Shown: positions 4,430-53,552 of the stretch, one piece after another
How the letters are laid out: the number at the start of each line of letters is the position of its first letter
Position numbering within the stretch: position 1 is the stretch's first letter
Source of the DNA: Buxus sempervirens
Taxonomy: Eukaryota > Streptophyta > Magnoliopsida > Buxales > Buxaceae
DNA: 64,000 nt
Assembly: GCA_947561395.2 (NCBI GenBank)
Contig: OX387189.1
Coordinates: forward strand, 25,668,329-25,732,328
Reading direction: 5' to 3'
Made by a program: the position numbers and the translations under genes
The notes under the pieces: model-generated
The model's input: the letters and a program-made list of their open reading frames with translations, nothing else
Told to the model about the DNA's origin: nothing
The model's database searches: none

Positions 4430-4442
4430 GGCTTACCTGGGG
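4430..4442 (-). promoter_or_regulatory. Conserved 5' splice donor in LTR
   Basis: On the minus strand CCCCAG|GTAAGCC, with the intron starting at 4436, about 70 nt after the expected start site. The same donor occurs at 49304 and 19434. It implies that transcripts from this LTR family are spliced early in the leader; the acceptor is not identified. Confidence 0.65.
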
Positions 4443-4530
4443 TTCTGGAAGCAATCCGGCAGCGGTTCCCTTCTTCACTCGGAGCTCTTGGATCTCCAAA
4501 TTCTTGGCCAATTGCTTGAGGAGGAGCCTC

Positions 4531-4540
4531 CTATTTATAG
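4531..4540 (-). promoter_or_regulatory. LTR A TATA box
   Basis: CTATAAATAG on the minus strand, conserved at 49399-49408 in the solo LTR and as a weaker AATAAATA version near 19300 in the 3' LTR. Transcription would start near 4505. Confidence 0.75.
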
Positions 4541-4693
4541 GCAAAGGCTAGGGTTGTTGGTAGACACAACTTAATGTCTAGAACCCACCAACCTTAACCC
4601 TAAGGCTGTTTTCGAGATTTCCCCTCATTTAATGAGGGACATGATGGTAAAAAGTGAAAACTCTCGGAAAACCCTAATTTTGAGCAAAATTAA

Positions 4694-4838
4694 TGTATCC
4701 GGCATATCAGGCTGGATACACAAGGGCCTTAATGTATCCGGCATATAATGCCGGATACACTAAAGCTTCCTTGTATCCGGCATTTTCCATCGGATACAAA
4801 GAAGGGTACTTGTATCCGGCCTGAGTTGCCGGATACAA
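4694..4838 (-). promoter_or_regulatory. Four-palindrome array in LTR A
   Basis: Four imperfect palindromes at 4694-4720, 4733-4759, 4771-4799 and 4810-4838 have centres at 4707, 4746, 4785 and 4824, exactly 39 bp apart. Core arms are GTATCCGGC and GCCGGATAC. The second has perfect 12-bp arms around ATA; the fourth has perfect 11-bp arms. The array lies about 154 bp upstream of the LTR TATA box. Even phasing and conservation in three LTRs suggest protein-binding sites (inference). Confidence 0.85.
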
Positions 4839-5416
4839 GGAAAAAAGCCTTTTTTCTGCATTTTAACACAGACAATACTTATTTACATGTAATATCATTT
4901 AAGTAAATGTCCTCGTATTTTTTAATCTCCATTTACTTAAGATATTACATGTAAATAAGCAAACACCCCCCCCTCCCCCATTTGAATCCATTAAAAATAG
5001 TTCCAGACCCAAATTCCAAGTGAATAAAAAGTCAACTTTCCAGTTCTAGGCAAAATTCCGATTTTTCAGGTCTGGAAAAAAGGTTCAATATGTTAAAACC
5101 AAGGTATTCGTCAAGATTTAAAATCTCAAAAAATTCTTTTATGCAATAACATGGCTAAAAACCTGATTACCGGGAAAAATTATCTTGAAATCTGGTTTTA
5201 AAAAAAATATTTCATTTTCCGGGGTCAAAAGTCAACAAAATTTAACCGGAAAAAGTTTGACTTTGCACAAAAGATTGAATTCGGGCCTTTTCCTTTTCCA
5301 TTTTGGATTCAAATGGGTTAAGTATTTCAAACCCAATGCAAAGAATTGAAAATTCCAATAAAATATTTCTGTCCTTCAAGATTTATCAAAAATCGTGCAA
5401 TTTTGGGGTGTCTACA

Positions 5417-5713
5417 GTGAGAGCATGTGTTCTTTTTGGTTTCAATACCTTGAGGTGAACATGAAAAAATTTAAAAACTTGAAATCTGGAAATTTAGTGT
5501 TAATTTTGGGTATTCAAGCATGTTTCCCATGAATAATTTTTTTTGTGCTTAATGCTTGTTTTATGTCATGCTTAGAATCTCAAAGCCGCAGACCCAAAGC
5601 CCTAAATAGACAAGATTAGGCACCCAGGTGTCCGCCTGCACCCCATCAGGTGGTGGCGACTCCGAATTACCCTGTGCCGCGTTTTCCACGCGCACACAGA
5701 CATCAGTTCCTCT
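5417..5713 (+). other. Leader / LTR-end-like remnant
   Basis: 5430-5570 is an inverted copy of 2260-2400 from the leader of the opposite element. 5600-5700 matches the 3' ends of LTRs D and E (CCTGCACCCCATCAGG, then GTGGCGACTCCGAA, ending GCGCACACA). No primer binding site follows, so most of the leader and the gag N-terminus appear deleted. Confidence 0.55.
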
Positions 5714-6262
5714 TTGAACCGGGTCTCCTCCCTCATGGCCCAAATAAACACTGCAAGGCCTCCATTGGTTTTTAATTGCAGTCCACCCACTTGTTCACCA
5801 TCCAAGCCATCAAAGGCTCCACTGGTCATCAACCTTGACCCCACCACTGCTTCCATCACCTCCTCTGCTCCCACAAAATCCAAACTCCAACCCTTGGTTG
5901 TAAACATTTAGCCATCCTACAGCGTCCCTAGACCGGCCCATACATCCCGGCCCAAACTCCAACAGTTGGTGGTCAATGTCCCCAAATTAGCCTATTCTAA
6001 GGCCGTTGTACCATTGAATTACAGCGAAGGGGTCACGGCTACGGTTCCAGTGGTCAGGAACCATAACCAGGAAGAAGTGAACCTCATGACGAGGTCGGGG
6101 AAATGTGTGGAAGGAGTAGAAAAAGAAAAAGAAACAGAGGCGGAGAAAGAGAAAAAAGAAACAGAAGAAAAAAGAAAACAAAAAGGAAAAACAAAAGTAG
6201 GAGAAGACACCCCCCAGGGTGCAAAAAATGAGATTAGACCTCATAAAAATAATAAAAAAATG
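5714..6262 (+). pseudogene. Tat gag C-terminal remnant
   Basis: Two open stretches (5714-5908 and 5966-6262) separated by a stop. The first is Pro/Ser/Thr-rich. The second contains a VVPLNY segment, then LMTRSGKC, then a strongly charged Lys/Glu tail. The xTRSGxC motif near the end of Gag is a recurrent feature of Tat elements as I know them. Matrix/capsid parts are absent. The Lys/Glu tail is compositionally simple (purine-rich DNA). Confidence 0.6.
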
Positions 6263-6269
6263 TGAATTC

Positions 6270-7030
6270 AATCTTGTGGATTAGCTGAACAAGGTCCCGG
6301 CCCAGATTTCAATACTGGGCCTTTTGCTGAATTCGGAAAAGCATAGGGACGCATTGTTAAGGGTGCTACAGAGTGCACATGTATCCCAGACCATTGATCC
6401 GGACCAACTTGGCAAAATGGTTGGTCAAATTTTGTCACATAATGTGATAAGTTTCTCAGAGGGTGAGAACAGCCCAGGTGGGTGTTATCATGTTGACCCT
6501 TTGCACATCACAGTGCTCTGCAAGGGCAGTATGATCGCACGGGTTTTAATTGACAACGGGTCGGCGTTAAATGTCTGTCCGTTAATCACTTTTACCAAGT
6601 TTGGTCTAGATCAATCAAAGATCAAACAAAATGGGAGGATAGTGAGGGCTTTTGATAGCTCCAAGACCCACTCCCTAGGGGAGATTGAACTACCGGTCAC
6701 AATTGGACTGAATATCTTCAACATCACATTTGAGGTGATGGATATACCCGCAGCATTCAACCTACTCCTAGGGAGGCCGTGGATACATCGGCTAGGGCAA
6801 TACCATCCACGCTCCACCAAAGAGTAAAATACATAAGAGGAAAAATGGTGATAACAATCCTAGCCAAGAATTTGGTGCCTCCCATTGTGTCACTTGATGT
6901 ACCCTTGATAAATGTGGACTTAACTGTTGACAAGATTGCGTTTCATTCATTTCAATTTGAAACGGTCAATTATATACCTGGGGGTGTGAGAAAGGAGAAA
7001 GAAAAGGGACCACTACTACTGAGAAAATGA
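6270..7030 (+). pseudogene. Tat aspartic protease region
   Basis: The frame opens after a TAG near 6282 with a Tat-type linker (LNKVPAQISILGLLL). It runs through the protease domain with active-site motif VLIDNGSALNVCP; DNGS replaces the usual DTG/DSG, a variant common in plant Tat proteases. The flap/substrate region continues to LLGRPWIH, a conserved Tat motif. After about 6790 the downstream sequence continues in another frame (6779-7030), indicating a frameshift. In an intact element it would cut the Gag-Pol polyprotein. Confidence 0.75.
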
Positions 7031-7171
7031 TAAAGAAAGTGATGGAGAAATACCACTTTCACCCGGGGAAAGGCTTGGGAATCAATTTGCAGGGAATAGT
7101 GGAGCCAATCATGGCCAAGAAACTGATCCCTAAAGTAGGGTTGGGCTTCAAGCCCAGAGGATGGAGAAGGT
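7027..7171 (+). pseudogene. G-patch-like segment of Pol
   Basis: A short frame with glycine signature GKGLGINLQGI then GLGFKPRGW, resembling the G-patch found between protease and RT in several Tat/Ogre polyproteins. It ends in a stop and is out of frame with both neighbours. G-patch modules usually bind RNA or RNA helicases; any function here is inferred. Confidence 0.55.
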
Positions 7172-7849
7172 AGAAACACGAAGAAGGAGAGAAAAGAAGT
7201 AAAGGAAAATTCCCTCATTTAAGGGAAAGTTTCCCAAAACCGTCTTGTATAATCCAACTATCTCCTCCCATGGACCAATCCAAGCCCCCATACTGCAACA
7301 TCAATCCTTATCAAAGGCCTTCTATTCCAACCTTGCAACCTTATAACCCATCTCCTATGCTTGGAAATTTGGGCGTGCCTGGGCCACAGCCCGAGCAGCA
7401 AGTGAACTACTCTGAGGATTTTGGGGCTTTCTTCGCCATGACTAAAGGTGAAAAAACTGGTGGTGACAACGAACTACCATTCATTGACTGGGCCGCAGTA
7501 AAGATTCCGGAGGAGGTCATTTCTGGATTGGGCCCCGTGGCAGAAAAGGGCAGTACCCACCCGGTGATGATGGCATCGGATTCTGGGCATGAGGAGCAGG
7601 CTTTCCCTATTTCCCCTGCTCCCCAAAATTTTGTACTGAACAATTAGGAAGAAACTCCCCTTACCTTTGAAGCAGCGTCTATGTGGCAATCTAACGCGGC
7701 TTCCAAAAAAAAACTCCAATAGTGGAATGCCATTTCCCTGAAGGTCCTAATGAGCCTTCGTCTTCAGGGGAATTATATTTAGAAGGCTCACAAAAAACCC
7801 AAAAAGATTTTTCTATTTTTCTAAAAAATTTAAAATTTTCAAAAAGGTC
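7172..7849 (+). pseudogene. Protease-RT linker remnant
   Basis: A 125-codon open frame at 7270-7647 (Pro-rich start, no recognisable domain), followed by disrupted sequence with an A/T-rich stretch at 7796-7835. It occupies the linker position of Tat polyproteins. I see no catalytic motif. Confidence 0.4.
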
Positions 7850-9545
7850 CCAACCACTTATGAACCATATAATAAAACCGAATTGGACCAAGTTGAATAT
7901 GACTTCAACCTTGAGCTCGACTTTGACCTCATGGGGATCGAAGAAGAGACCGAGGTCGAGGAAGAAGACGTTCCAAAAGAAATTGAATATCAATTGGAAC
8001 GTCATGAAAAGGGGGTCCAACCTAATATTGAGGAGACCATATCAATAAATCTTGGGACCAAAGATGACCCAAAAATAGTAAAAATCGGGGCATGCGTATC
8101 TGATGTGCAACAAAATGAAATGACACGATTTCTGGCAGATTACAAGGATATGTTCGCTTGGTCATATCGGGACATACCAGGGTTGGACACTGACATGGTG
8201 GTACACAAATTGCCAATTTTGTCAGGGGTTAAGCCAATCAAGCAGAAGCAGAGAAGATTGAAACCTGAATGGACTATGAAGGTCAAGGACGAAGTGGTCA
8301 AACAATTCCAAGCAGGATTTCTGGCAATCTCTATGTATCCGGAGGGGCTTGCAAACATAGTGCCGGTACCAAAGAAGGATGGGAAAGTCAGAATGTGCGT
8401 AGACTACAGAGATCTAAATAAGGCAAGCCCAAAGGATGATTTTCCGCTTCCACACATCAACATTCTGGTCGATAATACTGCGGTACATAGCCTATTCTCG
8501 TTCATGGATGGTTTCTCGGGATATAATCAGATCAAGATGGCTAAGGAAGATCAAGAGAAAACAACATTCATCACACCTTGGGGCACGTTCCATTATACGG
8601 TCATGCCGTTTGGGCTTAAAAACGCTGGGGCAACATACCAGCGGGCCATGACCGCACTATTCCATGACATGATCCATAAGGAGATGGAAGTCTACGTGGA
8701 TGATATGATTGCCAAATCGTGCAAAGAAGAGGACCATTTGATTAATCTAAAGAAGGTATTTGATCGTCTCAGGAAGTACAGTCTACGGCTTAACCCAACT
8801 AAATGTGTCTTTGAGGCTACATCAGGGAAGTTGCTGGGATTTATTGTGAGCCGAAGAGGAATTGAAATTGACTCGGCTAAAGCCAAGGCCATAATTGAAA
8901 TGCCAGCACCCAAAACAGAGAAGGAGGTCAGGGGCTTTCTTGGAAGAATCCAATATATAAGCCGGTTCATAGCACAGCTCACTGCTATCTGTGAACCAAT
9001 TTTCAAACTTCTGAGAAAGGATAACCCAACGGTCTGGAATGAGGACTGCCAGCAGGCATTTGACACAATAAAGAGGTATTTGCTGAACCCACCCGTGCTA
9101 GTGCCACCAACTCCCGGAAGACCACTGATCATGTACTTGTCAGTGTTGGAAACGTCGATGGGATGTGTCTTGGGGCAGCATTATGAGACTGGTAGAAAGG
9201 AAAGGGCAATTTACTATCTGAGTAAAAAATTTACAGAATATGAGGCCAAGTACTCACCATTGGAAAAGACTTGTTGTGCTCTAGTTTGGGCAACTCAGAG
9301 GCTAAGGCATTTTTTCCTTAGTCACTACACATTATTGATATCCCGGATGGACCCTCTGAAGTATTTATTTGAGAAGCCGGCATTGACGGGCAGAACTGCA
9401 AAGTGGCAACTACTACTGTCCGAGTTTGACCTCACGTACATCACTCAGAAGGCGATTAAGGGGCAAGCCATTGCTGATCACCTGGCTGCACATCCTTTGC
9501 CAGAATACCAACCTCTAAAGACCAACTTTCCGGATGAGGCAATTC
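7850..9545 (+). pseudogene. Reverse transcriptase and first RNase H of Tat element
   Basis: A long open frame whose conserved part starts near 8100. RT motifs in order: VPVPKKDGKVRMCVDYRDLN, FMDGFSGYNQI, TPWGTFHYTVMPFGLKNAG and catalytic YVDDM, then the thumb (LGFIVSRRGIEI). The first RNase H follows: CVLGQHYE, AIYYLSKKFTEYEAKYSPLEK, WATQRLRHFFL and the ADHLA motif. The usual catalytic Asp at the start of this RNase H is not evident, consistent with the degenerate first RNase H known in Tat elements. The frame is lost near 9548, before the second RNase H. Within this segment the catalytic motifs look intact. Confidence 0.9.
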
Positions 9546-9549
9546 TGCA

Positions 9550-10452
9550 ATTCTGTTTACTGAAGAGGAGGAAAGCGCGAGTTCTTGGCAGATGTTCTTC
9601 GATGGGGCCACCAATATGAATGGAAACGGAATAGGGGCAGTTTTGGTCAAACCGGATGGTTCACACATCCCGATTGCAGTGAAGCTAAGATTCCAGTGCA
9701 CCAATAATATTGCAGAGTATGAAGGATGTATAATTGGGTTGCAAGCCGCCATAGATCACGAAGTGGAGGAACTTGATGTATACGGAGATTCGAGTCTTAT
9801 CATCTTCCAAACAACTGGTGAATGGAAAACCAAGGATCACAAATTGATCCCCTATCACCAGTATTTGGAAGAAATAAGCACAAATTTTACTCGAATTTCC
9901 TTTAACTATATGCCAAGGGCCAAGAATCAGTTCGCAGATGCTCTAGCAACATTGGTTTCCATGGTCAGCATGCCAGAAGGGGTAGACATCAAACCGCTGG
10001 AAATTGAGGTCAGAGATGAGCCGGCTTATTGTCTCGTTCTGGAGGGAGCACCTGAAGAAGAAGCACCATGGTTTCAAGATATCAAAAATTTCTTGAGCAA
10101 TCGGAGTTTGCTAGAAAATGCCACGTTTACTGAGAAAATGACAATACAGAGATTAGCCGGTCAATTCTTGCTAAGTGGTGGACATTTGTACAAGAGATCA
10201 CATAATGACATTCTGCTCAGGTGTGTTGCTAAGGCTGAATCAGAAAGGTTAATCGAGACCGTACATGAAGGAGTTTGTGGACCCCATATGAACGGACACA
10301 TGCTGGCAAAGAAGATCCTACGGTTGGGATACTACTGGTCGACCATGGAGCATGATTGCTGTATACACGTCAGGAGGTGTCACCAATGTCAGATATATGC
10401 AGATAATAAGCATGCACCCCCAAGTGAGTTGCACAACATGACATCCCCATGA
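9550..10452 (+). pseudogene. Second (archaeal-type) RNase H and integrase zinc finger
   Basis: Starts around MFFDGATNMNGNGIGAVL, the first catalytic Asp of the second RNase H. Next come NNIAEYEG (Glu), VYGDSSLI (Asp) and NQFADALATL (Asp), so all four acidic residues are present. This domain is the diagnostic dual-RNase-H feature of Tat elements. The integrase HHCC zinc finger follows near the end: HEGVCGPHMNGH then CIHVRRCHQC. The frame stops at 10452 just before the integrase core, so this is a break in a once continuous Pol. Confidence 0.85.
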
Positions 10453-10867
10453 TCCTTTTCCATGTGGGGGCATAGACGTCATTGGCATGATTTCCCCTAA
10501 GGCATCGAACGGGCACAGATTCATCTTGGTAGCAATCGACTATTTCACTAAGTGGGTAGAAGCAGCCTCATATGCAAATATCACAAGGATTAAATTTTTG
10601 AAGCACAATATTATTTGTCGCTATGGACTGCCAAGTGCCATAGTATCAGACAACGCTTCAAATATTAAGAACAAGGACATAAAGAAAATGTGTTAGCAGT
10701 TTCAAATCACCCACCACAAGTCAGCTCCATGCAGGCCAAAGATGAATGGGGCAGTAGAAGCAGCAAATAAGAATATAAAGAAAATCATTCAGAAGATGGT
10801 AGTGAGCTACAAGGATTGGCATGAAATGCTGCCACTTGCCCTACATGCCTACAGTTCTGCCAGTTGA
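10453..10867 (+). pseudogene. Integrase catalytic core, broken
   Basis: Core motifs lie in successive frames. The first Asp is in AIDYFTKWVEA (~10530). The second Asp is in IVSDNASN (~10650), where Ala replaces the usual Gly. An in-frame stop follows at ~10694. The Glu is in MNGAVEAANKN (~10745). All three DDE acidic residues can be found, but the reading frame is interrupted at least twice. Confidence 0.8.
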
Positions 10868-11372
10868 AGCAGTTCTGCCAGTTGAAGTAGAAATCCCATA
10901 TTCATTGGTCTATGGGATTGAAGCAGTCCGGACTTCAATGGGGGCAACCCCGTATTCATTGGTCTATGGGATGGAAGCAGTTCTACCAGTTGAAGTAGAA
11001 ATCCCATCACTCAGAGTTCTCATGGAAGTTGAATTGGAAGAAGCTGAATGGATACGGTCAAGAAGTGATCAGCTCAACCTGATAGAAGAAGAGCGGTTAA
11101 AGGCGCTATGTCATGGCCAATTGTACCAGAAGAGAATGGCCCGGGCCTACAATAAGAAAGTGAGGCCCAGAACTTTCCAAGAAGGAAACTTGGTGCTAAA
11201 GAAAATCTTACCATTTTTGGAGGATCCTCGTGGTAAGTTCAAGCCGAATTGGGAAGGGTCGTATGTTGTCAAGAAGGTCCTGTCAGGGGGTGCACTCATC
11301 TTGACAGAAATGGATGGGACAAATTTTCCTGAGCCAATTAACTCTGATGCAGTAAAAAGGTATTTTCCTTGA
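10821..11372 (+). pseudogene. Integrase C-terminus with internal duplication
   Basis: A 183-codon open frame covering the conserved TPYSLVYGMEAVLPVEVEIP segment and a C-terminal part (LVLKKILPF, GKFKPNWEGSYVV, near-terminal NSDAVKRYFP) typical of Tat integrases. The segment around PYSLVYG is present twice (10890-11010) through an imperfect ~90-bp tandem duplication. The natural Pol stop is at 11370-11372. Confidence 0.8.
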
Positions 11373-12344: not shown

Positions 12345-13960
12345 CTAGTCTCTGTCTCCAAGCCACTCCTCAAGCTCCCGAATCCGAGCTGCCTGAGCTG
12401 CAATTACTCCAGAAGCCCCCTCTGCAGCGGGATCACTCAAGAAGGAAATGACCTCATCTGAAAGAGTCTGCCTAATCCTCATGCTCCTAAGGCTGGCTAA
12501 AGCATCCTGGTGCTTCTGCCTCAAGGCTCGTACTTCAAGACAGTGAGCCTGCCTATGCTCCTCAAGTTGCTTCTCCATAGCCAGACGGCGAGATACCTGC
12601 TCTGCAAGTTGCCTCTCATGTCAAGGCCCCGTATCCTAAGCTCCTGGGCCTCTCGTACCCATATCTGCTGAAGTCGCTTGTGAGAAGCTCTCTCAGACTC
12701 CAGAATGTCCTCATAAGTAGGAGCCAAGACTGCTGGAGGATCTTCAGGTACGGAAGCCTAACTCTGTATCTGCTCCCTAATCCAAAAGAGATAGTCCTTC
12801 ACATGGGACTCTAAGAAGACGGGGCCCCGCATAAAGCGAACATAAGACCACTCCCTCATCAACCAGGCATTCAACTTCATGGTAGCTGGAAAAAGTGGCC
12901 CAAGACGATCTTCATACCCACTTGGGATTATAATCCCCTGGGTCGCTCTGAACTGACGAAGGACCCTCAAAGGAAGGTAAAGCACCGCATGTCTCAGGCC
13001 AGCCAGAACCAGAAAGTTGCGGTCTCGGAAGCTAATCACAGTCTCTGTATTGGGCTAATAAGTACCAGGCCACCTCACCTGAACATCCTAGAGTGTAGCC
13101 AAGAAAGTAAACAAGCCCTGTTTACCCCCTGGAATGTCGGGACACCCCCGGTTGCTCATCAAGATAGGAACTTTCAAGCTTGGGAAGAAGTGCCTATTGA
13201 TTTCCTCAATCTGACTCAGGTGGTCAAGTAGCCAAAGCTGCAAGGGAGGAGACATATTTCAGTGTATTGCATAAGAAAAAAAAAGCAAAAAGCAAAAAAG
13301 AAAAAAATAGCAAAAAAGAAAAAAAATGCAAAAAAGAAAATTTTTTACCTGCAGGATGGGGGCGCATGATAGGAAGCGCTTCGACTTCCTATGATAGCAG
13401 TCAGTCAAAGCCTGATACATCTCTGCCAAAATCATAGGGGCCAGTTCTCCGGCTCCCTAACCTGGCATACAACTGAGATTATGGCCAAGTCCACCTCATC
13501 ATCATTCCATGGGAAAAGTAGTTGGTTGACCACTATCAGGGTCAAGGCATTGAACCTAGCTTCTTTATTCTCCCCTCTCAAAAGCTTCTCAGTTAGAAAA
13601 GACTTGGACAAAGTCAATAGGGTATCAGAATCCCCTAAATCCTTCTTCCCTATGCCTAGGAAAGTAGAAGCCTCCTTCTTGTAGCTGGGCCTAAGGGGCG
13701 GATTCACTACCTTCTCATCAAACCTCAAGCCTAGAATGGTTTCCACCTCTTCAATGGTCAGGGTCATCTCATGGTTTCCAAAACGGAAAAGGTTGAGGTC
13801 GGGTACCCAATGGCCAGTCATGGCTTCAATAATCTCCCATTTGAAGGAAACCTTCGGGATAAGCATAATGTGGCCTAGATGGTTTTGATCTAAAAGGCTG
13901 TTTTGCAGGGGAGGCTGTGTGGACAGACAATGGCAAGGCAGAAGATGATCTGGATTCCAT
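12345..13960 (-). pseudogene. Antisense gene 2: plant-mobile-domain-like protein
   Basis: Read on the minus strand. ATG at 13960 lies about 110 bp below a TATA box (14078-14071). Exon 1 runs to 13349 and contains LNLFRFGNHEMTLTIEEVETILGL, then LLFPWNDDEVDLAIISVV, resembling plant-mobile-domain / DUF7745-type proteins (family call from memory). A 111-bp intron (13348-13238; CAG|GTAAAA, TTGCAG) joins in phase to exon 2 (LWLLDHLSQIEE). Exon 2 is interrupted by stops at ~13085-13050 and at 12758. The last part is a coiled coil ending ARIRELEEWLGDRD. Frameshifts lie between 13900 and 13866 and at ~13434. Role unknown; it lies antisense between pol and the 3' LTR, the aORF position of Tat elements. 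Confidence 0.65.
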
Positions 13961-14070
13961 TGGAGATGATGGGAGCAAGCTAGAACTCAAGGGGAGGAAG
14001 AAAAAGGCGAAAAAGGGGTTTTCTAAACTCAAAAACTCGTAAAAAATGCTCAAATCCCGAGGCTGGTTGC

Positions 14071-14078
14071 ATTTATAG
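14071..14078 (-). promoter_or_regulatory. TATA box of antisense gene 2
   Basis: CTATAAAT on the minus strand, 11 bp below the palindrome array at 14089-14232 and about 110 bp above the ATG at 13960. Confidence 0.65.
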
Positions 14079-14088
14079 CATGTTTTAA

Positions 14089-14232
14089 TGTATCCGGCAT
14101 ATCAGATCGGATACAAGGAAATTTATTCATATCCGGTAAACAGTGCCGGATACAAAGAGTTTTAAGCGTATCCGGCATATTAGGCCGAATACAAAGAAAA
14201 CTCAATGTATCCGGTCTGATATGCCGGATACA
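14089..14232 (-). promoter_or_regulatory. Four-palindrome array upstream of antisense gene 2
   Basis: Four imperfect palindromes at 14089-14115, 14128-14154, 14167-14193 and 14206-14232 have centres at 14102, 14141, 14180 and 14219, exactly 39 bp apart. The arms (TGTATCCGG / CCGGATACA) are those of the LTR arrays. Here they abut the TATA box instead of lying ~155 bp away. Confidence 0.85.
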
Positions 14233-14503
14233 AAGAAAAAATGCAAAAAAAAGAGAAAATGGAGGAAAATCCGAATTTTTTACCTGTTTCACGTGTGTAC
14301 AAGTTATAATTGCATAAAATTGAAAAGAAAAGAAGTGCAAGACAAGAGAGAATGAATAAAAAGTTTCTTTCATATATAAATGCAAGTTTCTCTGTACAAA
14401 GTATGATGAAAAATACATAAAAATCCTAATCTCCCACTACTGTGCAGGATCACCCCCCACGTCATTTGCCTCAGGCCCCTCTGCGACCTCTACCTCGAGG
14501 TGA

Positions 14504-17116
14504 TCAACGCCTAGAGTATGCCAGAATACGCTCGGCAGCATGGTGAGGAAGCCGACCCACAACCGACTGGATCTGATACTCCAAGCAATACTCCGAAAGG
14601 TCTGGAAGCGGATCAGGAGCAGAATCTGGGGAAGAAGCCTCGGGCTCAGCACGTACAGGCTCGACTGGACCCTCAGCCACAGCGGCCTCCGCTCCCGCAG
14701 ATCCAGAAGGCCCAACAACAGTAGAAGAGGAACCGGGAATAGAAGTATCTTGGTCAACAGAAAGGGTCAGAAGCAGAAATATCAAGATAAACCAAAAAGG
14801 GAAAATTAAAGAAAACTTACTTGGAATATCTACAATGGGAACTGGGGGATCCAGCTCAATTGGATCAACAGCAGGGAGGTCCTTCGGCTCAGGAGCCGCC
14901 ACTGGAGATGAAGGACCCACAAGATCCTTAGGAGCCGCCACTAGAGATGGATCGGGAACAGTGGATGGAGCATCCTCAGCAGCCCGAACCGGAGATAGAT
15001 CAGGAGCCGGAGGAGCTGGCTCGTAGGCAGCATCCTGATCTGGGACTGGGCCCTGCAAAAGTCAAACAGGCATATCAGAATATCAGAAATGAAAAAAATG
15101 AAATTACAAGAGAACCAGATACCTGTCTAGTCTAAAGCTCAGCAACCAGAGCCTCCAACTCTCTGATCCTAGCATCCCGCTGGGCCACGACCGCATCATG
15201 CTCTGCGATCATATCCTCGATCGCGGCCCGCTGGGTCTGGAACCGGTCCCGAATGAAGATCATGAAACTCACAGTGTCATCATGGACCTGAATGAAGATC
15301 CCGCCAATCTCGGTCACCCCGGCGCGAGTCGGTCGATCCATCAAGCACCCAATGGATACGCTCTGGATCCACTCGTCGTAATCCCCAGCTACTGTGAGCC
15401 CCTTCGCATCCTGGAAATGATCAAACTGATCAACATCAAAGCTTGGCAGGAGCGTGTCGGGACCCACACGAGGAGGGGGAACGGGGATACGAAGTGTGCC
15501 TGTGTGCTGATAGTACAGGCGCTCTCCCAAGTACATCACCCTACCAAGCCTCCCAAGGAAGCACTGGTAGGGCTGACATCGCCGATCTCTATCAAAGGCG
15601 TCCTGCACTACCATCTCACGAGCAACTCCAACATCCACATCGTCAAAGCGGGACAGGATGAGCTGCAAAGAAGAGATATGGTCAGATACAGTCAAGATGC
15701 AGAAAAAGAAATAAAAGGAAAAAGGACAAAGGATTTACATCGAATCGGCGGGCACGGTCCAAGTGCACCCGAGCAGTGCAAGGCTGACTCCTATCAGCAT
15801 CTCGGACCTGGGCCGACCAGCGTAAAGCAACAGGGAAATCCGCAACCTCAGGCACCGGGGATGGGTGGAAGAAAGTCATATAGGTGTACATAAACACCTA
15901 GCAAAAGAAAAATCAGTCAGAAATAAAGGAAGATAAAGCCCAAGGAATGGGACAGGACAACTTAATACCTGCAGGATCTGCCAGAAGAACCGGCAGCTGA
16001 CCCCATCACCTCTCGAGGCTGCCAGGCCTCGAACCACTCGGCACAGCCCAGCCAAGATGGTCCCATAGATGAGTCGACCCCATGCTAGCTGGCGGGTCTG
16101 ATGAAAATCTCGCAGAGCATCTAAGAAAAGAGGACTGACACTAGTCGTATCCTCCGGGAAGAAGCAGCTCCTGAGCATCAGCAGAAAAACGTGCCGGAAG
16201 ATAGGAACAAAGGCCGCATCCTCCACAGCAACGGTCGCATGTCTCCCCTCATAATGACGAGCCAAGCTCTTCCGCAACCAACTAATGGAGAGACGACCAC
16301 TCCGCCCATCCCAAGCAGCAGGAGGCAGGTCCTGATATCCCAGAAGAAGGCCGATATCCTCCGTGGAAGGCCGATCCAAGACGATGGTCCGCCCCATCAA
16401 AGGAATACCAGTAATCATCACAAAGTCGGAAGGGCGGATCCCCAGCTCCACGTCCGGCAGATGGAATGATTGAATGTCCGGAAAATATCTCTCCATCATG
16501 GCGAAGATAAGTAGACGATCGGCTCGGAATGAGGGAATGCTGAGGAAATAATCCAAGTGGCACCTCCCAAACTCACGCCTGAGTGCCGCAGAAAGCGACT
16601 GAGCTAACTCGCTAAATCTCCCCCAACTGCCTTGCAGATGGGAAGAATGATATGGAAGAGGCACATCGGCCTGGATGCACATGGAGGGGTGACTATCCAA
16701 GCCACTGAGGAGCTCTGTATCATGAACAGATGCTCTCAGCTCCGCAGAAACCCCTGACAAAGCTACAGCAGCACCATCTTGAGCCGCACCTCTGGCTCTA
16801 CCTCGGCCTCGGCCTCTGCCACGGCCTCCCTCACCCTCAGGGGCCTGATCCTGAACTTGGCCTCGGCCTCTGCCCCGACCTCGAGCCGGAGCAACAACGG
16901 GCTAAAATTCAAAGGAAAAGTGTGAAGATTGGCATAGGAAGAGAATAGAAGGAGGAAAAGAAGAATTGGGAAGCCTACCTCAGCAGAGCTCTCTCTTAAA
17001 TCATCTAATGGCTCAGACAAAGTGGCGCTAGAACTCGCCTCTGTCCGAGCCCACGAGGTGGAAGGCCGATCAGCTGGGTCAACCTCCTCTCGCACATGGG
17101 AGCGACTCCTAGCCAT
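14504..17116 (-). CDS. Antisense gene 1: spliced plant-mobile-domain-like protein
   Basis: Model on the minus strand. Exon 2 is 17116-16979 (46 codons; the ATG directly follows splice acceptor TGTAG). Exon 3 is 16901-15969 (311 codons: RG-rich start, then a domain with SIPSFRADRLLIFAMMERY, DFVMITGIPLMGR and LLMLRSCFFP). Exon 4 is 15897-15739 (53 codons). Exon 5 is 15662-15123 (coiled coil ending RDARIRELEALVAEL). Exon 6 is 15052-14821 (Pro/Ala-rich). Exon 7 is 14748-14504. Every junction has GT and AG and phases agree throughout, giving ~748 codons, but a TAG at 15134-15132, four codons before the exon 5 donor, would end the protein at 586 residues. The domain resembles aminotransferase-like/plant mobile domain proteins (from memory); molecular function is unknown. 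It lies antisense to the host retroelement with its own promoter at 18300. Confidence 0.7.
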
Positions 17117-18270
17117 CTACACAGGGAAGTGTTTTATGAATTTATCAGAAATTGTACCTTGCTTTTGGTCTAGGTTCACGGGATTATTTTTCAAAATTAT
17201 CGTGAATTATGTCTCGAAGGAATTTTATCTCATTTGTGTTATCTACAAAGTTTTGGGGAGTGAGAGATATTTTCTGTTTCTAATTCTAAAATATTTTTCC
17301 TAACCCTAAAAGATTCTTACAATGCTTAACATTTCCTAATCTGTTGTGATTTCAGGATATACTCATGGAGGCAGAATAAAAAGCAAAGGTGAGGATCGAA
17401 AAAACAGAATTGGCAAGCCAGGTCGGAAAGTCAAGGTATGGGGATGGGCAATCCACCATCAATAATTGGCAAAATCTAAAAGTCATGACCAAAGGTTATA
17501 ATCAGCAATATCAGCAGTAAACCATCCGATGGTATCAGATAATGCCATTCAAAAGTGAAGCCACTATTAAGTGATCAATCTTGTGGAATAATTGATCATG
17601 GATAGAAATATATATATATATATATCTCCAGCAGGACAATCTTAAAGAATCACAGCAAATTGGAGACCAAAGCTTGTTCTAACATGCAACCAGGAAATCT
17701 AGCATGCAATCAGGAAATCAGTAGTCCAAGGAATCAAAGCATGCAATCAGAAAATCAACCATCAAGACTCAAGCAAACCAAGCATCTACAAGAAAGGCTG
17801 CCCAGCATAATCAATCTCAATCCATACAACAATTCAGTTCATACACAAACCAAAAATCAGTCGGAAATTACCAATGGTGGGTAATTCAAAGTTACTGTCA
17901 ATTTGAGGACAGAAATATGCAAAATTTGTCAAAGCCATAATCTAAGTTTGCTGCAAATGTGCAATCGGCCAAGAGAAAAATATATTTTTTGCTTACCAAT
18001 AGTGCCGAACAATGGATTGAAAGGTTGGAAGCAGGAAGGATGCCGAAAATTGAAGAAGGTCACCGAAGCCTGGGTAATGGCGACTAAACAGTCACTTGGG
18101 AGCAAGAACGAAAACTCCACAACGATTCTAGGGCTCGGTCGCAGCAGTAAATGAGTATCGCCGGAAGCAGCGAGAGTCACCGGGAGCCGTCGGAGAAGAA
18201 AGGGGAGCCGTCGGGGACGAAGGAAAAGAGAGGTGTGTCCGGTTTGAGTAATTGGAGAAGGAAGAAAAGA
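17117..18270 (-). other. 5' UTR exon and intron of antisense gene 1
   Basis: On the minus strand a first non-coding exon (~18270-17997) ends at ATTG|GTAAGC. An 880-bp intron (17996-17117) ends TGTGTAG immediately before the ATG. The intron contains an (AT)n run at 17609-17624 and no gene on either strand. The start-site position is inferred from the TATA box. Confidence 0.55.
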
Positions 18271-18296
18271 ATGGGGAAAGTTGCGGTCGCGCGCGA

Positions 18297-18305
18297 CTTA
18301 TAAAA
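18297..18305 (-). promoter_or_regulatory. TATA-like box of antisense gene 1
   Basis: Minus-strand TTTTATAAG, 6 bp below the two palindromes at 18311-18376 and followed by a GC-rich start region. The arrangement matches the promoter of antisense gene 2. Confidence 0.55.
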
Positions 18306-18310
18306 CCATG

Positions 18311-18376
18311 AGTATCCGGTGAATCAAGCCGGATACAAACAAGGCCATTCGTATCCGGCATGCTATACCGGATACA
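18311..18376 (-). promoter_or_regulatory. Two-palindrome array upstream of antisense gene 1
   Basis: Palindromes at 18311-18337 and 18350-18376 have centres at 18324 and 18363, again 39 bp apart, with arms GTATCCGG / CCGGATAC shared with the LTR arrays. Confidence 0.8.
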
Positions 18377-18892
18377 AAAGAAAAAAACAAAAAAAAAGAG
18401 AGAGAAAAAAAAAGGAAAAAAGAGAAAAATAAATGAAAAAAGGAAAAAAGGGAAAAAAGGAGAAAAGAAAAAAAAAGAAGAAAAAAAAAAGAAAGAGAGC
18501 AAAAATGCGCTGCAAAGTTAGCTATTTTCTCACAAAATCCTATTGTCGCCTTAAAATCCACCTCACAGCCAAGAGAGCTCAGTGGAATTTGGGACAACTT
18601 TGGGAAATGTGTTGGTCAAAAAGGAAGATATCCACTCAATTTTTAACTTGGTGATAAAAAAAATCAGTTTTCACAAAATCCTATTTTTGGGCTTAAAATC
18701 CACTTCATAGCCACGAGAGCTCAGTGGAATTTAAGAATTCTTGGAGAAATGCCCCCTTAAAGTTAAGGCTTTTTGGCAAATATTCACCTAAAAATTATTT
18801 TGAACCAAGCAAATCAAAGTTAAGGGAGTGCAATTTGGGCTTGTCTAATCTTTGCAGCTCATTGCTTCGCAACTCCCGCAAAGAGGGGTAGT
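18377..18892 (+). other. Purine-rich tract, duplication and polypurine tract
   Basis: 18379-18500 is almost pure A/G on the plus strand. A ~60-bp segment (TCACAAAATCCTAT to GAGAGCTCAGTGGAATTT) occurs at 18531-18590 and again at 18672-18732. AAAGAGGGGTAGT at 18880-18892 lies directly before the LTR start and is the likely polypurine tract, which fixes the element orientation as plus. Confidence 0.65.
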
Positions 18893-18992
18893 TGTAGACA
18901 CCCCAAATTGCACTGTCAAAATGATCAATAATCACCAAAAATCATTATCTCCTTGAAGGCCAACACAGAATTTGAGAAAATGAGTTTTTGCC

Positions 18993-19137
18993 TTGTATCC
19001 GGTAATTCAGGCAGGATACAAGTGTCCTTCTTTGTATCCGATGGAACATGCCGGATACAAGCAGACCTCAGTGTATCCGGCATCATAGGCCGGATACATT
19101 AAGGCACTTGTGTATCTGGCCTGATATGTCAGATACA
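18993..19137 (+). promoter_or_regulatory. Four-palindrome array in LTR C
   Basis: Palindromes at 18993-19021, 19032-19060, 19072-19098 and 19111-19137 have centres at 19007, 19046, 19085 and 19124, exactly 39 bp apart: the mirror image of LTRs A and B. Some arms have single mismatches (for example CAGGATACA, TGTATCTGG). Confidence 0.85.
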
Positions 19138-19752
19138 CAAGTTTTGCTCAAAATTAGGGTCTTCCGAGAGCTTTTCACTTTTACCATCATATCCCTCATT
19201 AAATGAGTGGAAATCTCGGAAATAGCCTTAAGGTTAAGGTTGGTGGGCTATAGACATTATGTTGTGTCTACCATTCTCACCAACCCTAACCCTAGACTTT
19301 GCCAATAAATAGGAGCCTCCCCCTTAAGCAAATGGCCATTAATTCTCTTGCAAACAATTCTTGTCAAGAATCTCTGCCAAGAAGAGCTCCGAGTGAACAG
19401 GGAAACCGCTGCGGAAGTGCTTCCAGAACCCAGGTAAGCCTCAAACCTCTTTTTAATTTTTGTCCTTACATTTCTAGATTTAGATCTCTTCTTCTACCTT
19501 TCTGTAGAATAAGGCCTTCTATGTGTGTGAAAACCCTTCCCCGGCTCAAAGTATCTCAAGACTCCCCCTGGCCGTAAAACGTGAAGGCGGGATCTAGGAG
19601 AAACGAGACTGGGGATTGATCCTAGTGATAGAACCTATTTGAATAAGCCTTTTGCATCTATGTAAACCGATCCATATTCAAAGTACCCCAAGATTATCTT
19701 GAAGAACCGTGTTTAACGGGGAGAGAGAACTAAGGGAAACGATAATGGAACG

Positions 19753-21763
19753 TGTAACGCCCCGGAACCGGGTTACGTGAAATAAACCGTAACTCGTTCC
19801 CAAGGAGTTAACTTTTCACACAGGATCGCTATCAGAGTGAAGGAAAACATGAAATAACCATTTTTATAATCATAGTCAACTAAAATTTTCCCCAACTCAC
19901 CTGAGCCAAGCATATACCCACTTGTAACGTCCTCACCAGGATCTGAAAACAAAACAAAACAGTGAGATACGACTATCTCAGCAAGTAGCAATGCATGCAT
20001 GAAATACAGATATAACCTTTTTCCAAAACGTGCATAAATTATGAACGGTAAAGTATACGATTAACCTCGGTTAATCCGTCTAATCTCGGAAAACATCGTC
20101 ATTCAAATTCAAAAAAAAAAAAAACATTATATATTGGGACTCGTGAAGTTTGTCTATTTTGTGTGGCTAAGCACTAGAGTTCCAGACAATCCAGTCTAAC
20201 ACTGCAACAGCTCGAACATCCAATATCGTCGCCCTCATGGCGGAAAACTCAAGTGACCTCACCATCATGGTGGAAACGGAGTTGCTGCAGCACTTCCCTC
20301 ATGGAAGGCCTCTCCATCATGGAGGAAACGCATGAAGGAACCCCAGACTTAAATCCAAACAAAATATACAAATTCACTACAACTAGACTGTGGATCCACA
20401 CTAAGTCTCACCCTTAGTACTAGGTAAAAGATATCGTATATCGAGTAAATTTATCTTAATAACCATGCTTATAATAAAAGAAGACATTTTGTAGTGGACA
20501 ATATCAATTTCGTTTTCGTGTACTCATTAAAACCATCCAATAAAAATATTTCAGCATTTACTACTACTTTAGAAATACTCTTAATATCATTCCCCCGGAA
20601 TAAATGAACACGTGAAGAATTCATAAGTAAAACATTTCAGGTAACAATAAAATTCAGCAATATTAATGTAAGATTAAAACAGTCCCATAATTCCTACAAC
20701 TTAGTCCTCCTATCTTAAGGTGCAGAATTTGATATTTCTTTACTAATTGAGTGTTAAACCACTCATGCTCAAAAACTTCTGCAGATCACCAACAGCAATG
20801 AAGTCTCATCGAACCAATATATATAAAAAGAAAATCTGATATGATAATTTGCCCTTTTAATTTATTGTCAAATAATTTTCCATAGATCACCACAGCTCAT
20901 TGAATCCCAAATAACATTTGAATAAAATAGATGGAGTGATACTATAGGCTAGAACATGTAAATCTGCTCCAAATATGCACAATTCCATCTTGCAGAAATT
21001 TCAACTTACACTTAGATGGACTTAACATACCACAACTCTTTAATCCAATTTTTGATACTAGGTATTTGTAAAAATTAGAATTCAATATACTAATCAAGTT
21101 AGAGAAAAGAATCAATAGTTTGAAATTAATGTAAGAACCAACTCTAAAGTACTCTAAGAATTTCCAAACATTAACTTGCATTTTAGTACTAATAACTCAA
21201 GAAGTTCTCAAAATTTCTTTTAAATCTTTTAATGATAATTTATAAGAAGCTAAAATGTAAATGATCTTAAAAACCCAACTAATTGGTTCTAATACTGATT
21301 ACTACTAATTCCTATAGTTTACTGAAATTTTTGGACCTTTATTGACACATGAACAATTTTGGTGGATTAATAATAATATGTTAGTACTTAAGATGTATTC
21401 AAGAAACCCAATTTTAAATTTGCAGAAAATCATTCTTTGTCTTTAAAAGTGCATCACATAACTCATGTACTTTATGCTATTGATTTCATTTCCATAAAAT
21501 AGAACATGAATCTAAATTTTTGCTACAAATTTGAAAATATAGAATATGGTAGAGCAGGGGTCATTGTGTAATTTTGTTTTTTTAAAACTTCCTTTAACTT
21601 AAAGGTTTCTAAATTGCAAGAGTGCCTCAAAACAATTTCAAATTTGCAATTTTTGGACACTAAATTCAACGAACCCAGATTTTCTCTCTCTACCGTAGAA
21701 AACAACCCAATTCCCCACTATTCTACCCAGCCCCTCTTACTACCACATCTCAAATAATTTTTA

Positions 21764-21809
<46 letters not shown>

Positions 21810-23081
21810 TTGTTTTTTTTTTTTATTTCTCTTCTCCCCTTTTGATTTCCATTGTTTCTGCAACTTTTTTTTTTTTTTTTTTTTACCGTGGCTGTATCGC
21901 CCATTAGCAGCCCCCTTTTTCTACTGGTTTATGCTCAATGGTTCCCTCTCTCTCTCATACGAACAACCCCAGAATTATTCTTGTTCTATAGCACTTCTTA
22001 CTCTGAATCAAATCTACAACATGCTGATTATCTCTCATCCAGAATTTAAACTCAGAATTTTTCTTCTTGCCAACGATCATACTAGCAGCTCCTATCCATA
22101 ACTTTTCTATCATGAAAACGTGGGGAGATGATGCATTGGTAAGTTAGATTAATAAGCAATTATCTAATGCATTCATTCATTCCTAGAGCATGCGAAATCA
22201 GTCCATAAATTTTGCTGCAAATCAGAACAAAAACCATGGCTATGTGTCACGTTTAAACCACCCATTCCAAATGTCAAGAAGGTGCTAACTTACATTGTTT
22301 GATGCTGGAAACTTCACTCTGAAACAACAACAGCAGATTTGGTATTTCTCCACGCCAATTCAAGTCGAAGAAACTGCTCACTGTTCTACAATTTTTGGAC
22401 GTTTTTCTGCTCCAGCAACTTAGCACGAATCCCCCTTAGAACAAGGCTTCTCCCTTCTTAGGATTTCTCAATTCCAATTCTCCATCTCACTTCCCAGATC
22501 TACAATTCATAAACCATTTTAATTCGAGGGTTACAATTTACTTATTGCACTTACGGTTACCTGTTGCAACTCCATACGTTTAGCAACTCTTCAAATCCAA
22601 CATGATCCCATGCATCGATACCCCACTAAACTCCTACACCACACCATTTAAATTTTTTTTTTATATATATTTTTATTTTAACTCCCAAACCATTCCAACA
22701 TCACCACATGAATTATTTAATTCTAATTAAAATTTCTAAATAATATTTTCTATTGAACTTATAATAAAATTTACTTACCTTTATTTTATTAAATTCGACT
22801 GTTGCTAAATTTCCATTTGCTCTTGCGTATCGCACACCTGAAAATCCACCAATATTAAGTTTTAATTTATTAATTATTTCCTTCAATTATAAATACTAAA
22901 AATCTGGGGTTACGGTGTATTTAAAATCCTTCGTATCTTTATAATTAGATTTTCCACCCAGATTCACCCGAGAATTCCGGTTTGACTGCTTAATCTCCTT
23001 TTTCTGAACTTTCATCAATTAAATAAATTACTAAACCCCAAAATCCAATTTTTAATATTATTAAAAATTCGGGGTTTTACA
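19753..23081. mobile_element. Nested solo LTR or LARD-like element, TSD GAACG
   Basis: Begins TGTAACGCCCCG, ends CGGGGTTTTACA, and is flanked by GAACG at 19748-19752 and 23082-23086: a clean insertion into LTR C. No protein-coding frame. It holds four CATGG-centred palindromes (20231-20330), a (CT)n run (about 21766-21808) and poly-T runs. Length is 3329 bp, long for a solo LTR, so a non-autonomous large retrotransposon derivative is also possible. A related LTR remnant lies at 24906-26230. Confidence 0.8.
21766..21808. repeat. (CT)n microsatellite
   Basis: About 20 CT units, followed by T-runs at ~21815 and ~21867, inside the nested LTR. Confidence 0.9.
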
Positions 23082-24712
23082 GAACGGAACCCTAGGTTGT
23101 TCTAGAACCTTTTTTGTATTTGATCTAAATGCATGCTATAAGCCTTGTGATTCTATGAAACCCCTTTCCTATTCAAAGTACCCCAAGATTATCTTGAAGA
23201 ACTGTGTTTAATGGGGAGAGAGAACTAAGGGAAACGATAATGGAATGGAACCCTAGGTTGCTTTTAGAACCTTATTTTGATGAATATGAATGCATGCTAT
23301 GTTCTGGAATGGTTTCTACACTTACACATACATAGCACATGTTTTGGCGGGATGGGCTCACATTCCGGGTTTATTGCATTTATTGTGATAAATCTGAAAT
23401 AAATAGCCCCAATCAATTCTGGAATGTATTTAAATGATTTTTAAAGGATTTGTATTCATCTTGCACGAATTGCACACACTTTGTCACAGTTTTGAATTGT
23501 TTTTCTCCAAAGAAGGCCTAACTTGACAACAACTGTACCCCTACTTCGAACACTCATAACTTCATCGTCCGGATGAATTTTGGAGTGATTCTAGAACCAT
23601 GAGAAAGGTGAGGCTGTCTAGTTTATGCCTACCAAATTTCATTAATTTCTATGAAGCAGATTCTTGACATTTCTCTGTCGAAGTTGATAGGTAAGTTCTG
23701 ATATGAATACAGAACCTATCACTTCGATCGAGCGCCATGTGTTTGTCTTCAATCCGATTCGAGTGATTTTTATTTCTGGGCACTCCTTTATGAGTCTAGT
23801 TTTAAATCCAGTTGGTTTCATAGTTTTTTGACTCCATTTGTGTTGTGAACAACAGATTTACTCAGAGCTGTTCAACAGCACTTTTCTGGGTAAATCTGTG
23901 ATCTTTGAGGCCTGTTCGGGGGACCACCCAAGGCACATCCGAATGAATTTTTGTATGAGGCTAGTTTCATTTGAAATATGGCCATACAGACTTCAATCAC
24001 ACCAAATTTCATAAATTTCTATGGAGCTGATTTGTCTAGGTGAGTTTCCAAACTTGCCTACTTGCCACTTTTAATCATCTCCAGCAGCAACTTTAAAGGA
24101 GCATAACTCCTAGGATTTCAACCGGAATTACTTGAAATTTTGCATGAGTCTATTATTTACCATAATCTTTCACATGTATTTGGTTTGGTTCATTTTAAAA
24201 TTGGATTTGAATGACCTCAAGACAAATGGCATTACTTTTCACCGAATTTTCCGGATTTAACTCAACTTGGTTTTATGCAACTTTCGCTATGATTTCCATC
24301 TTTTGGTGATATTCCAGAAGTGATATTGACATAAGAGAGGATCTGGAATCCATTTGGATCTTCATGTGAAGATATCATACATTTGTCATTTTTCAAGGTT
24401 TTTAATGATTTAGCAAGCTTTCTTACTTTTTTGCATGAACAAACACTTGGCAACCACCTTGTGTGGGTGAACGGGGGTGCCTAACACCTTCCCCTGTTCA
24501 TAATCTAATCCCCTTACCCATCTCTGGATTTGATTTTTAAGTAGAGTTATCTTTACTCTAGAATTTGCCTTTTAGCTATTTTTGTTTATCTTTAATCTTT
24601 TGGTGTCCATTCACACCCAAAATTTTGAATGGTGGCGACTCTCCCATTTTTACGTTGAGCCCGTGTGCTGACAGAGAGGAAAGCATCCCGGTGATTTTTC
24701 CCATGTCTCACA

Positions 24713-47173: not shown

Positions 47174-47187
47174 AACTCCCCGACCAA

Positions 47188-53508: not shown

Positions 53509-53538
53509 GTTTGCACCCAAATAAAAAAAAAACCAATT

Positions 53539-53550
53539 GCTTTGATACCA
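53539..53550 (-). promoter_or_regulatory. Copia primer binding site
   Basis: Minus-strand TGGTATCAAAGC, 2 nt from the LTR, complementary to the initiator tRNA-Met 3' end as in most copia elements, with one change from the common TGGTATCAGAGC. Confidence 0.85.
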
Positions 53551-53552
53551 CT

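Follow-up and report, generated by a model that had tools for sequence, protein, structure and literature searches.

Phased palindrome arrays at the LTR and antisense-gene promoters of a putative Ogre-type retrotransposon of Buxus sempervirens

A window of 64,000 nucleotides of the Buxus sempervirens genome, i.e., the whole stretch of DNA analysed here, contains long terminal repeats (LTRs) of a putative Ogre-type retrotransposon and, in one of the elements, two genes located antisense to gag/pol. Arrays of similar palindromes stand both in the LTRs and in front of the two antisense genes, which raises the question of whether a single DNA-binding factor might control the sense and the antisense transcription of the element and, if so, whether this factor is encoded by the host or by the element itself. 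The existence of a common factor, proposed in an earlier note on this DNA, is well supported as an interpretation of the sequence; it is very probable that one shared symmetric factor binds all the arrays.

Palindrome arrays in the window and in the genome

The scan of the window (arms of 10+10 bp around a 7-bp spacer, with at most five mismatches in total) disclosed 18 palindromes (10+7+10 bp) organized in five arrays (Table 1). All the 13 intervals existing within the arrays measure exactly 39 bp, as the earlier note had stated. Besides, the same scan returned an overlapping frame at 4694 and two weak, isolated matches (13680 and 46392). Matches to the arms with no more than one mismatch number 33 in the window versus 1.6 ± 1.5 expected; 30 of them are embedded in the five arrays and three are located elsewhere. 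When spaced palindromes of any sequence were scanned for (10-bp arms, at most one mismatch, at least three in constant phase), 39-bp arrays were retrieved only at the LTRs A, B, and C, together with one array with a 20-bp phase at 42536; the arrays of antisense genes 1 and 2 were missed because they are below its stringency. The distance between array and TATA-like box is 155-167 bp in the LTRs versus 9-12 bp at the antisense genes.

The mean information content of the window arrays is 1.71 bits for the arms, 0.58 for the spacers, and 0.59 for the linkers. Within the arrays A, C, gene 1, and gene 2, the units agree at 329/380 arm positions, at 47/133 spacer positions (29% in shuffles), and at 44/108 linker positions (41%, versus 27% in shuffles, p 0.0008). 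This residual similarity of the linkers makes it likely that the arrays originated from an old tandem duplication, though the linkers are far more diverged than the arms. The earlier note had regarded the arms as the conserved unit, which is true for a part of them: the sequence conserved across copies is TATCCGG-N9-CCGGATA, i.e., a core of 7+7 bp within a 23-bp site, while the outer TG/CA and the tenth base are variable. The 10-bp arm was dropped in favor of the 7-bp core, the outer bases varying about like the linkers in most comparisons.

The exact pattern TATCCGG-N9-CCGGATA occurs at 28,399 sites in the 676.5 Mb of the genome, versus 5 for the reversed pattern, and the junction CCGGATA-N16-TATCCGG, which corresponds to the 39-bp phase, occurs 17,900 times versus 0 in the control. 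Among the matches listed, 90 distinct sites of contig C1 have 58 neighbors within 160 bp, the distance being a multiple of 39 for 53 of them, 38 or 77 for four, and 103 for one; eight of the 90 sites are isolated at exact stringency. A census covering the window and the loci read (270,711 bases in all, a sample selected around elements, with both LTRs of each element counted) gave 157 near-matches, 148 of which fall into 40 clusters, with intervals of 39 bp in 102 of 108 cases, 38 bp in four, and 103 bp in two.

The same census bears on the possibility that the palindromes might act as hairpins of the genomic RNA (in packaging, in stability, or as a dicer substrate) rather than as DNA sites. 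Each unit could form a stem, and the arrays of the 3'-LTR U3, of the leader, and of the antisense promoters would all lie within the genomic RNA; moreover, where both sides of a site depart from the consensus, the changes match in 8/9 cases versus 0.9 expected if they were independent. However, these both-sided changes trace back to a few inherited events (six of the nine belong to one leader unit), and one-sided departures are more numerous (33 versus 9). A hairpin would account neither for the base identity of the arms, which is kept across arrays beyond what pairing needs, nor for the exact 39-bp phase and the placement 9-12 bp from a TATA box, so that this explanation appears improbable. 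The symmetric double changes that do exist (TAACCGG/CCGGTTA and GATCCGG/CCGGATC) fit what the site of a homodimer would allow.

Layout and conservation of the arrays in related elements

Five further full-length elements of contig C1 (E2-E6, read in pieces) share a common layout. The order is the same in all of them: LTR (four units), leader (three), gene-2 promoter (four), gene-1 promoter (two), and LTR (four), with homology to gene 1, gene 2, and pol at the expected places in 5/5 cases. The leader arrays are located about 1.4-1.6 kb 3' of the primer-binding site (PBS) (L033:6055, L036:6316, L039:6502, L042:5690, and L045:6251), and the symmetric variant TAACCGG-N9-CCGGTTA lies 39 bp before their three units, one of its sides being further changed in E4. 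In three of the five gene-1 promoters, TTTACTTAAG replaces TTTTATAAG. An additional element, E1, is a deleted copy of 9.5 kb lacking pol and most of gene 1 and retaining the LTR, leader, and gene-1 arrays. The arrays are, thus, kept in other copies, whose lack of them would have refuted the earlier note: in all the five full-length elements, in the deleted derivative, and in the second LTR family described below. Since the 5' and 3' LTRs of E2-E6 differ at only 0-4 of 623-624 compared sites, these elements must have been inserted recently.

Two side observations concern the same elements. In L045, the leader array is followed by 76-bp tandem repeats. In the first LTR unit, the 9-bp spacer of E5 (L042/L044) is the exact reverse complement of that of E2 (L033) (ATTGAGTAT versus ATACTCAAT), perhaps flipped between the arms via template switching or gene conversion.

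In order to describe the conservation of the LTRs, 18 segments were aligned, 12 of which (one LTR per E element, the two of A, the two of C, LTR B, and a further copy) entered the column counts. The variable columns are 9/56 in the core, 25/36 in the linkers, 27/36 in the 9-bp spacers, and 153/451 in the rest of the LTR, where none of 236 masks of the same geometry (overlapping one another) was as conserved as the core. Between the E and the window-type lineages (36 pairs), the core differs at 78/2016 positions (3.9%), the rest of the LTR at 15.6%, the linkers at 35%, and the spacers at 49%. When the window is compared with the E elements, the gene-1 promoter differs at 8/168 core positions (4.8%), 66/108 spacer positions (61%), 42/72 linker positions (58%), and 31.8% of the flank; the corresponding values for the gene-2 promoter are 12/280 (4.3%), 93/180 (52%), 76/180 (42%), and 10.5%. 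The divergence of spacers and linkers is roughly like that of synonymous sites (dS between the window and E is 0.37-0.47 for the reverse transcriptase (RT), 0.51-0.71 for gene 1, and 0.85-1.28 for gene 2), for which reason they look neutral, while the surrounding LTR evolves more slowly.

Within single elements, the eight 5'/3' LTR pairs show 7/448 changes in the core, 33/3839 in the other LTR positions, and 3/575 in spacers and linkers. Judging from these counts, the core is unprotected after insertion and decays freely between the two LTRs of an element, so that selection must have acted on active elements. A McDonald-Kreitman-style test gave seven core changes and three spacer and linker changes within elements, versus 0-2 and 24-34, respectively, between lineages (8 of 24 pairs); the Fisher p for core versus spacer and linker ranges from 2e-6 to 6e-4 in 24/24 pairs, which are non-independent and, sharing their history, represent in effect one lineage split.

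These data are hardly compatible with the idea that the arrays are a functionless, plain tandem duplication of a 39-bp unit. Such a duplication would explain the similarity of the linkers within arrays reported above; however, the core has been kept while linkers and spacers have diverged by 35-61% between lineages at the same phase, and the core is not conserved after insertion. This explanation is, in our opinion, very improbable, and plain tandem duplication, which the earlier note had named as a refuting condition, does not account for the spacing despite the residual linker similarity, because the linkers have diverged far while the phase has been kept.

The antisense genes and the candidate factor

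Antisense gene 1 encodes a protein with a plant mobile domain (PMD) and is predicted by splice signals to consist of four exons (17116-16979, 16901-15969, 15897-15739, and 15662-15132); its product has an RG-rich N-terminus and a C-terminus that, by eye, is coiled-coil-like. The C-terminus of the DUF7745 protein encoded by antisense gene 2 is also coiled-coil-like by eye (the segments of the two proteins are RIRELEALVAEL and RIRELEEWLGDRD); the window copy of this gene carries stops and a frameshift. Between copies, the ratio of nonsynonymous to synonymous divergence (dN/dS, codons holding stops being excluded) is 0.04-0.13 in gene-1 exon 2, 0.07-0.23 in exon 4, and 0.03-0.21 in the gene-2 domain, so that both antisense proteins are near the RT (0.03-0.08; 0.03-0.11 for the second RNase H of pol). 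The compared pieces contain one stop each in the RT of E2, in gene-1 exon 2 of E6, and in gene 2 of E5. According to these ratios, both antisense proteins are under purifying selection and, hence, real genes. A cis array under selection is found both at the LTR and at the promoters of the presumptive regulators, as is expected of an element-encoded trans-regulator.

No protein homologues of gene 1, used as a query in three forms, were found outside the source genome, and the viral contigs gave no match to two palindrome patterns, to the PMD open reading frame (ORF), or to the RT ORF. Among genome contigs outside the source, 12 bacterial loci harbor one palindrome each and are regarded as chance matches. 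A sequence search of the PDB retrieved one irrelevant match (E 4.3).

MAIN and MAIL1, which are PMD relatives, are nuclear or regulatory proteins required both for the expression of genes and for the silencing of transposable elements (TEs) (PMC5418596, PMC7156037), and Gypsy-encoded PMD-A clades exist (PMC5418596). Since the antisense proteins belong to a nuclear/regulatory family, are under selection, possess coiled-coil-like ends, and would regulate themselves as well as the LTR, they appear natural candidates for the common factor.

The following explanation can be proposed. The arrays would be multi-site operators or enhancers of the Ogre-type retrotransposon, each 23-bp site being bound by a symmetric, probably dimeric, factor, and the repeat of 39 bp would exist because neighboring dimers must contact each other or a partner. 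The common factor would act on the LTR promoter, from which the sense gag-pol RNA would originate, on the 5' leader site, and on the core-proximal promoters of the two antisense genes. It would be the element's own PMD/DUF7745 protein, establishing a self-regulating circuit, and likely an activator or an anti-silencer. We infer protein binding, the dimeric state, and the identity with the PMD/DUF7745 product from sequence patterns, and assign to the explanation as a whole, with the factor encoded by the element, a probability of about 0.5. Concerning the sign of the regulation, binding beside a TATA box could be compatible with activation or with repression; the persistence of the arrays in recently inserted elements weakly favors a positive or anti-silencing role, and a positive action on the promoters is somewhat preferred here to a negative one. 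A more extended version, to be taken as tentative, is that the element possesses its own regulon: by binding at the LTR, at the leader, and at the promoters of their own genes, the PMD/DUF7745 proteins might maintain an active or unmethylated state of all these sites in trans; the second family and the deleted copies might exploit these proteins, and spacers and linkers might drift as targets of silencing small RNAs while the bound core stays.

The second LTR family just mentioned has two array-bearing ends at C1:5919600-5921700 (L057) and C1:5932500-5935499 (L060). Its LTR arrays are 14.6 kb apart and contain 2+3 units at 39 bp, with one step of 103 bp; at the 5' end, TATATAAA follows the array by about 12 bp, and a further array of four units, including the symmetric variant GATCCGG/CCGGATC, lies about 0.9 kb downstream of the 5' array. 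Its match to gag (PF03732) is weak and does not reach the cut-off; downstream of the first end, there are TGGCGACTC sites. In a BLAST comparison with the LTR, promoter, and leader pieces, it matches at the arrays only; when compared with the whole window and the E6 pieces, it also matches outside the arrays, with 68-76% identity in places and 89.9% over 129 bp to window positions 5571-5699, in the leader of element C. Because of these matches, the second family should be considered a relative rather than an unrelated element; as far as sequence comparison goes, it is largely dissimilar in its LTRs and yet carries the same phased palindromes.

Several observations weigh against the explanation proposed above. 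The second family shows neither significant PMD homology nor a third array in the 2.1 kb preceding its 3' LTR array, a stretch that covers a minor part of its interior. The notion that every PMD gene has such arrays was not borne out, as four loci of 3.0-5.4 kb, chosen at PMD matches or upstream of them, are devoid of arrays; they contain no TATCCGG and only two single CCGGATA, both in L055. The array finder used at these loci recovers the LTR, leader, and gene-2 arrays of known elements and misses the two-unit gene-1 control, so that two-unit arrays with other arms might have escaped it. A DNA-binding domain was not recognized in the antisense proteins, and their AlphaFold2 models are uninformative (mean pLDDT, a per-residue confidence score, 37.5 with one sequence and 35.6 with seven); for MAIN and MAIL1, chromatin contact is not known (PMC9899485). 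The earlier note placed every array upstream of a TATA box, which is the case in the window and is not the case for the leader arrays of the five relatives, none of which has an adjacent TATA (TATAWA scan, -800 to +900): in two elements, the only matches fall inside the array, and in a third they stand 217 bp further on. The replacement of TTTTATAAG in three of the five gene-1 promoters is a further exception in the relatives.

Other points on this side concern the degree of conservation. The claim that the arms evolve more slowly than the linkers is confirmed for the 7-bp core at the LTR, gene-1, and gene-2 arrays; in the leader, the contrast among E elements is small (core 4.5%, linkers 7.1%, spacers 11.9%, flank 8.9%). 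When the core is compared with the rest of the LTR, p ranges from 0.0016 to 0.058 and is significant in most, not all, pairs. With 10-bp arms, the contrast to the rest of the LTR becomes weak or disappears in some comparisons because the outer bases vary: the arms differ more than the rest among E2-E6 (6.0% versus 4.2%) and between E and window-type copies (18.1% versus 15.6%), and less among window-type copies (6.4% versus 13.8%) and in the window LTRs A, B, and C (5.0-10.0% versus 11.5-13.7%), where the comparison of arms with spacers and linkers gives p 0.51, 0.07, and 0.04.

The second family and the array-free PMD loci keep a host factor under consideration. It is possible, if somewhat doubtful, that a host transcription factor binds the arrays, that copies of a host site have been multiplied at the promoters of the element, as in Tnt1 or ONSEN, and that the antisense proteins do something else. 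In favor of this, two families with largely dissimilar LTRs have the same site in common, the four other PMD loci lack it, and the half-site GGATA resembles the cores of MYB-related/GARP factors. On the other hand, a palindrome with 14 specified bases in a rigid 39-bp phase exceeds the usual host sites in length and strictness, the arrays adjoin regulator-like genes of the element itself, and the near-matches of the census are nearly all clustered, though that sample was chosen around elements.

As a separate observation, in other PMD families two PMD genes often share a strand at a distance of about 3.4 kb (e.g., C4:42315242 and C4:42318696), with open frames of mostly about 400-600 aa (117 matches scored of 8447 candidates).

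The elements of the window and their relation to known systems

The LTRs A, B, and C belong to three separate insertions, with minus-strand orientation for A and B and plus-strand orientation for C (Table 1). LTR A contains an extra segment of about 0.5 kb (about 4865-5390) between the array and the LTR start; LTR C is broken by an insertion at about 19752-23139. On the basis of shared spacers, locus L050 was assigned as the 3' LTR of element A and locus L051, left of the window, as the 5' LTR of element C. Element A appears to be nested in the leader of element C, and its own leader array was not found in the window at up to five mismatches.

Table 1. Coordinates of the arrays, LTRs, and genes in the window (TSD, target-site duplication).
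Feature	Position	Strand	Evidence and remarks
LTR A array (4 palindromes in 39-bp phase)	4694..4837	-	TATAAA 155 bp downstream in LTR sense
LTR B array (4 palindromes in 39-bp phase)	49563..49706	-	TATAAA 156 bp downstream in LTR sense
LTR C array (4 palindromes in 39-bp phase)	18994..19137	+	AATAAATA 167 bp downstream
Array at antisense gene 2 promoter, 4 palindromes	14089..14232	-	TATAAA 12 bp downstream (about 14072-14077); same place in 5/5 elements
Array at antisense gene 1 promoter, 2 palindromes	18311..18376	-	TATAAG 9 bp downstream (about 18297-18302); same place in 5/5 full elements and in deleted E1
LTR A, 5' LTR of minus-strand element, body left of window	2640..5416	-	TGTAGACA start, TCTCACA end, PBS TGGCGACTCTGCTGGGGA; BLAST to B and C
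LTR B, solo LTR inside copia element	47502..49794	-	BLAST; TSD CCGTA
LTR C, 3' LTR of plus-strand element	18893..24712	+	BLAST halves 18893-19752 and 23140-24712; purine-rich tract, TGTAGACA
gag/pol remains, element C	5606..11372	+	Pfam: RT, RNase H, RVT_3, integrase zinc finger at 7754-10452; other open frames unrecognised by Pfam
Antisense gene 1, PMD (PF10536) protein	15132..17116	-	PF10536 E=4.2e-11
Antisense gene 2, DUF7745 (PF24924, PMD-like) protein	12345..13986	-	Pfam E 1.6e-9; PMD also matched, below cut-off

In element C, the pol remains are followed by the two antisense genes and by LTR C. RVT_1 and RT_RNaseH (7754-9619) precede RVT_3 and the integrase H2C2 (9538-10452), so that the second RNase H typical of Ogre/Tat elements is present, as is a PMD-type extra ORF, another Ogre/Tat feature (PF10536, 43.1 bits with a cut-off of 34.9; DUF7745, 37.7 with a cut-off of 26). 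The PBS-like TGGCGACTCTGCTGGGGA, presumably complementary to tRNA-Arg, follows the LTR in element A and in 5/5 further elements. At E<=0.1, seven antisense-strand pieces match PMD, DUF7745, or weak unrelated models, and the Retand marker Transposase_28 (PF04195) is absent among their matches. The best explanation of these domain data is that the host element of the arrays would be an Ogre-type (Ty3/gypsy, Tat clade) retrotransposon.

The remaining part of the window contains, at 46475-54248, a second LTR-like pair (95% identical) around the copia element (gag, RVT_2, minus strand) that holds the solo LTR B; 76-bp tandem repeats left of LTR A (267-1389), which by eye are like those in L045; and legume-lectin/protein-kinase frames similar to an L-type lectin receptor kinase, with a diverged kinase copy (36908-39018 and 45031-45918), apparently host genes between the elements.

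In Tnt1 (BII box) and ONSEN (heat elements), the LTR is controlled by motifs repeated in U3, which host stress factors read; these motifs are, however, not known to be shared with antisense genes of the element. The LTR repeats of human T-cell leukemia virus type 1 (HTLV-1) are, likewise, read by host CREB-type factors. In that virus, the repeats (Tax-responsive elements) control sense transcription, and the antisense product HBZ suppresses the Tax-driven one (PMC9822710); the HBZ promoter is, however, TATA-less, its spliced form is Sp1-regulated (PMC9822710), and there is no homology to the present element.

The nearest working analogy is the VANC anti-silencing system of the Arabidopsis VANDALs, whose repeats diverge rapidly (PMC5735166, PMC10398659). 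The VANC protein binds a repeated motif and removes DNA methylation. VANDALs are DNA transposons (Mutator-like elements, MULE), whereas an LTR retrotransposon (LTRs, PBS, RT, TSD) is involved here; the VANC21 motif consists of nine bases and is not termed a palindrome in the paper describing it, in contrast with sites in a 39-bp phase at sense and antisense promoters. MAIN and MAIL1 are required for the expression of genes with a promoter motif (DOWN) and for TE silencing (PMC7156037, PMC9899485); the DOWN motif of the MORC1 promoter, CATGCAGTTT, is unlike TATCCGG, and direct binding is not shown for MAIN/MAIL1 either.

Antisense ORFs, the PMD of Ogre elements (present in 57% of them; PMC6317226), and proposed regulatory roles are already known (PMC11963269, PMC7264820, PMC6317226). 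A regulatory role has been proposed for the antisense ORFs of Retand, Ogre, and Grande, and a separate promoter as well as a nuclear product are recorded for Grande gene23 (PMC11963269, PMC7264820, PMC6317226); unlike these, the element described here has two antisense genes, PMD and DUF7745, with a cis-array common to the LTR and the antisense promoters. No description of such a shared array was found in the literature searched, a scope in which subscription papers are mostly not included.

That plant retrotransposons carry antisense accessory genes has long been known, a function for these genes being lacking (PMC7264820), and the route by which PMD proteins take part in transposon silencing in Arabidopsis is not yet understood (PMC7156037, PMC9899485). 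The arrays offer a candidate DNA target that occurs tens of thousands of times in the genome and is preserved by selection at both sense and accessory-gene promoters; this target being precise, the function of the accessory genes and the PMD route become directly testable. If the factor were indeed encoded by the element, this would be the first function, together with a DNA target, for Gypsy-encoded PMD proteins, and a plant retrotransposon would encode its own transcriptional circuit, comparable to those of retroviral Tax and of the DNA-transposon VANC.

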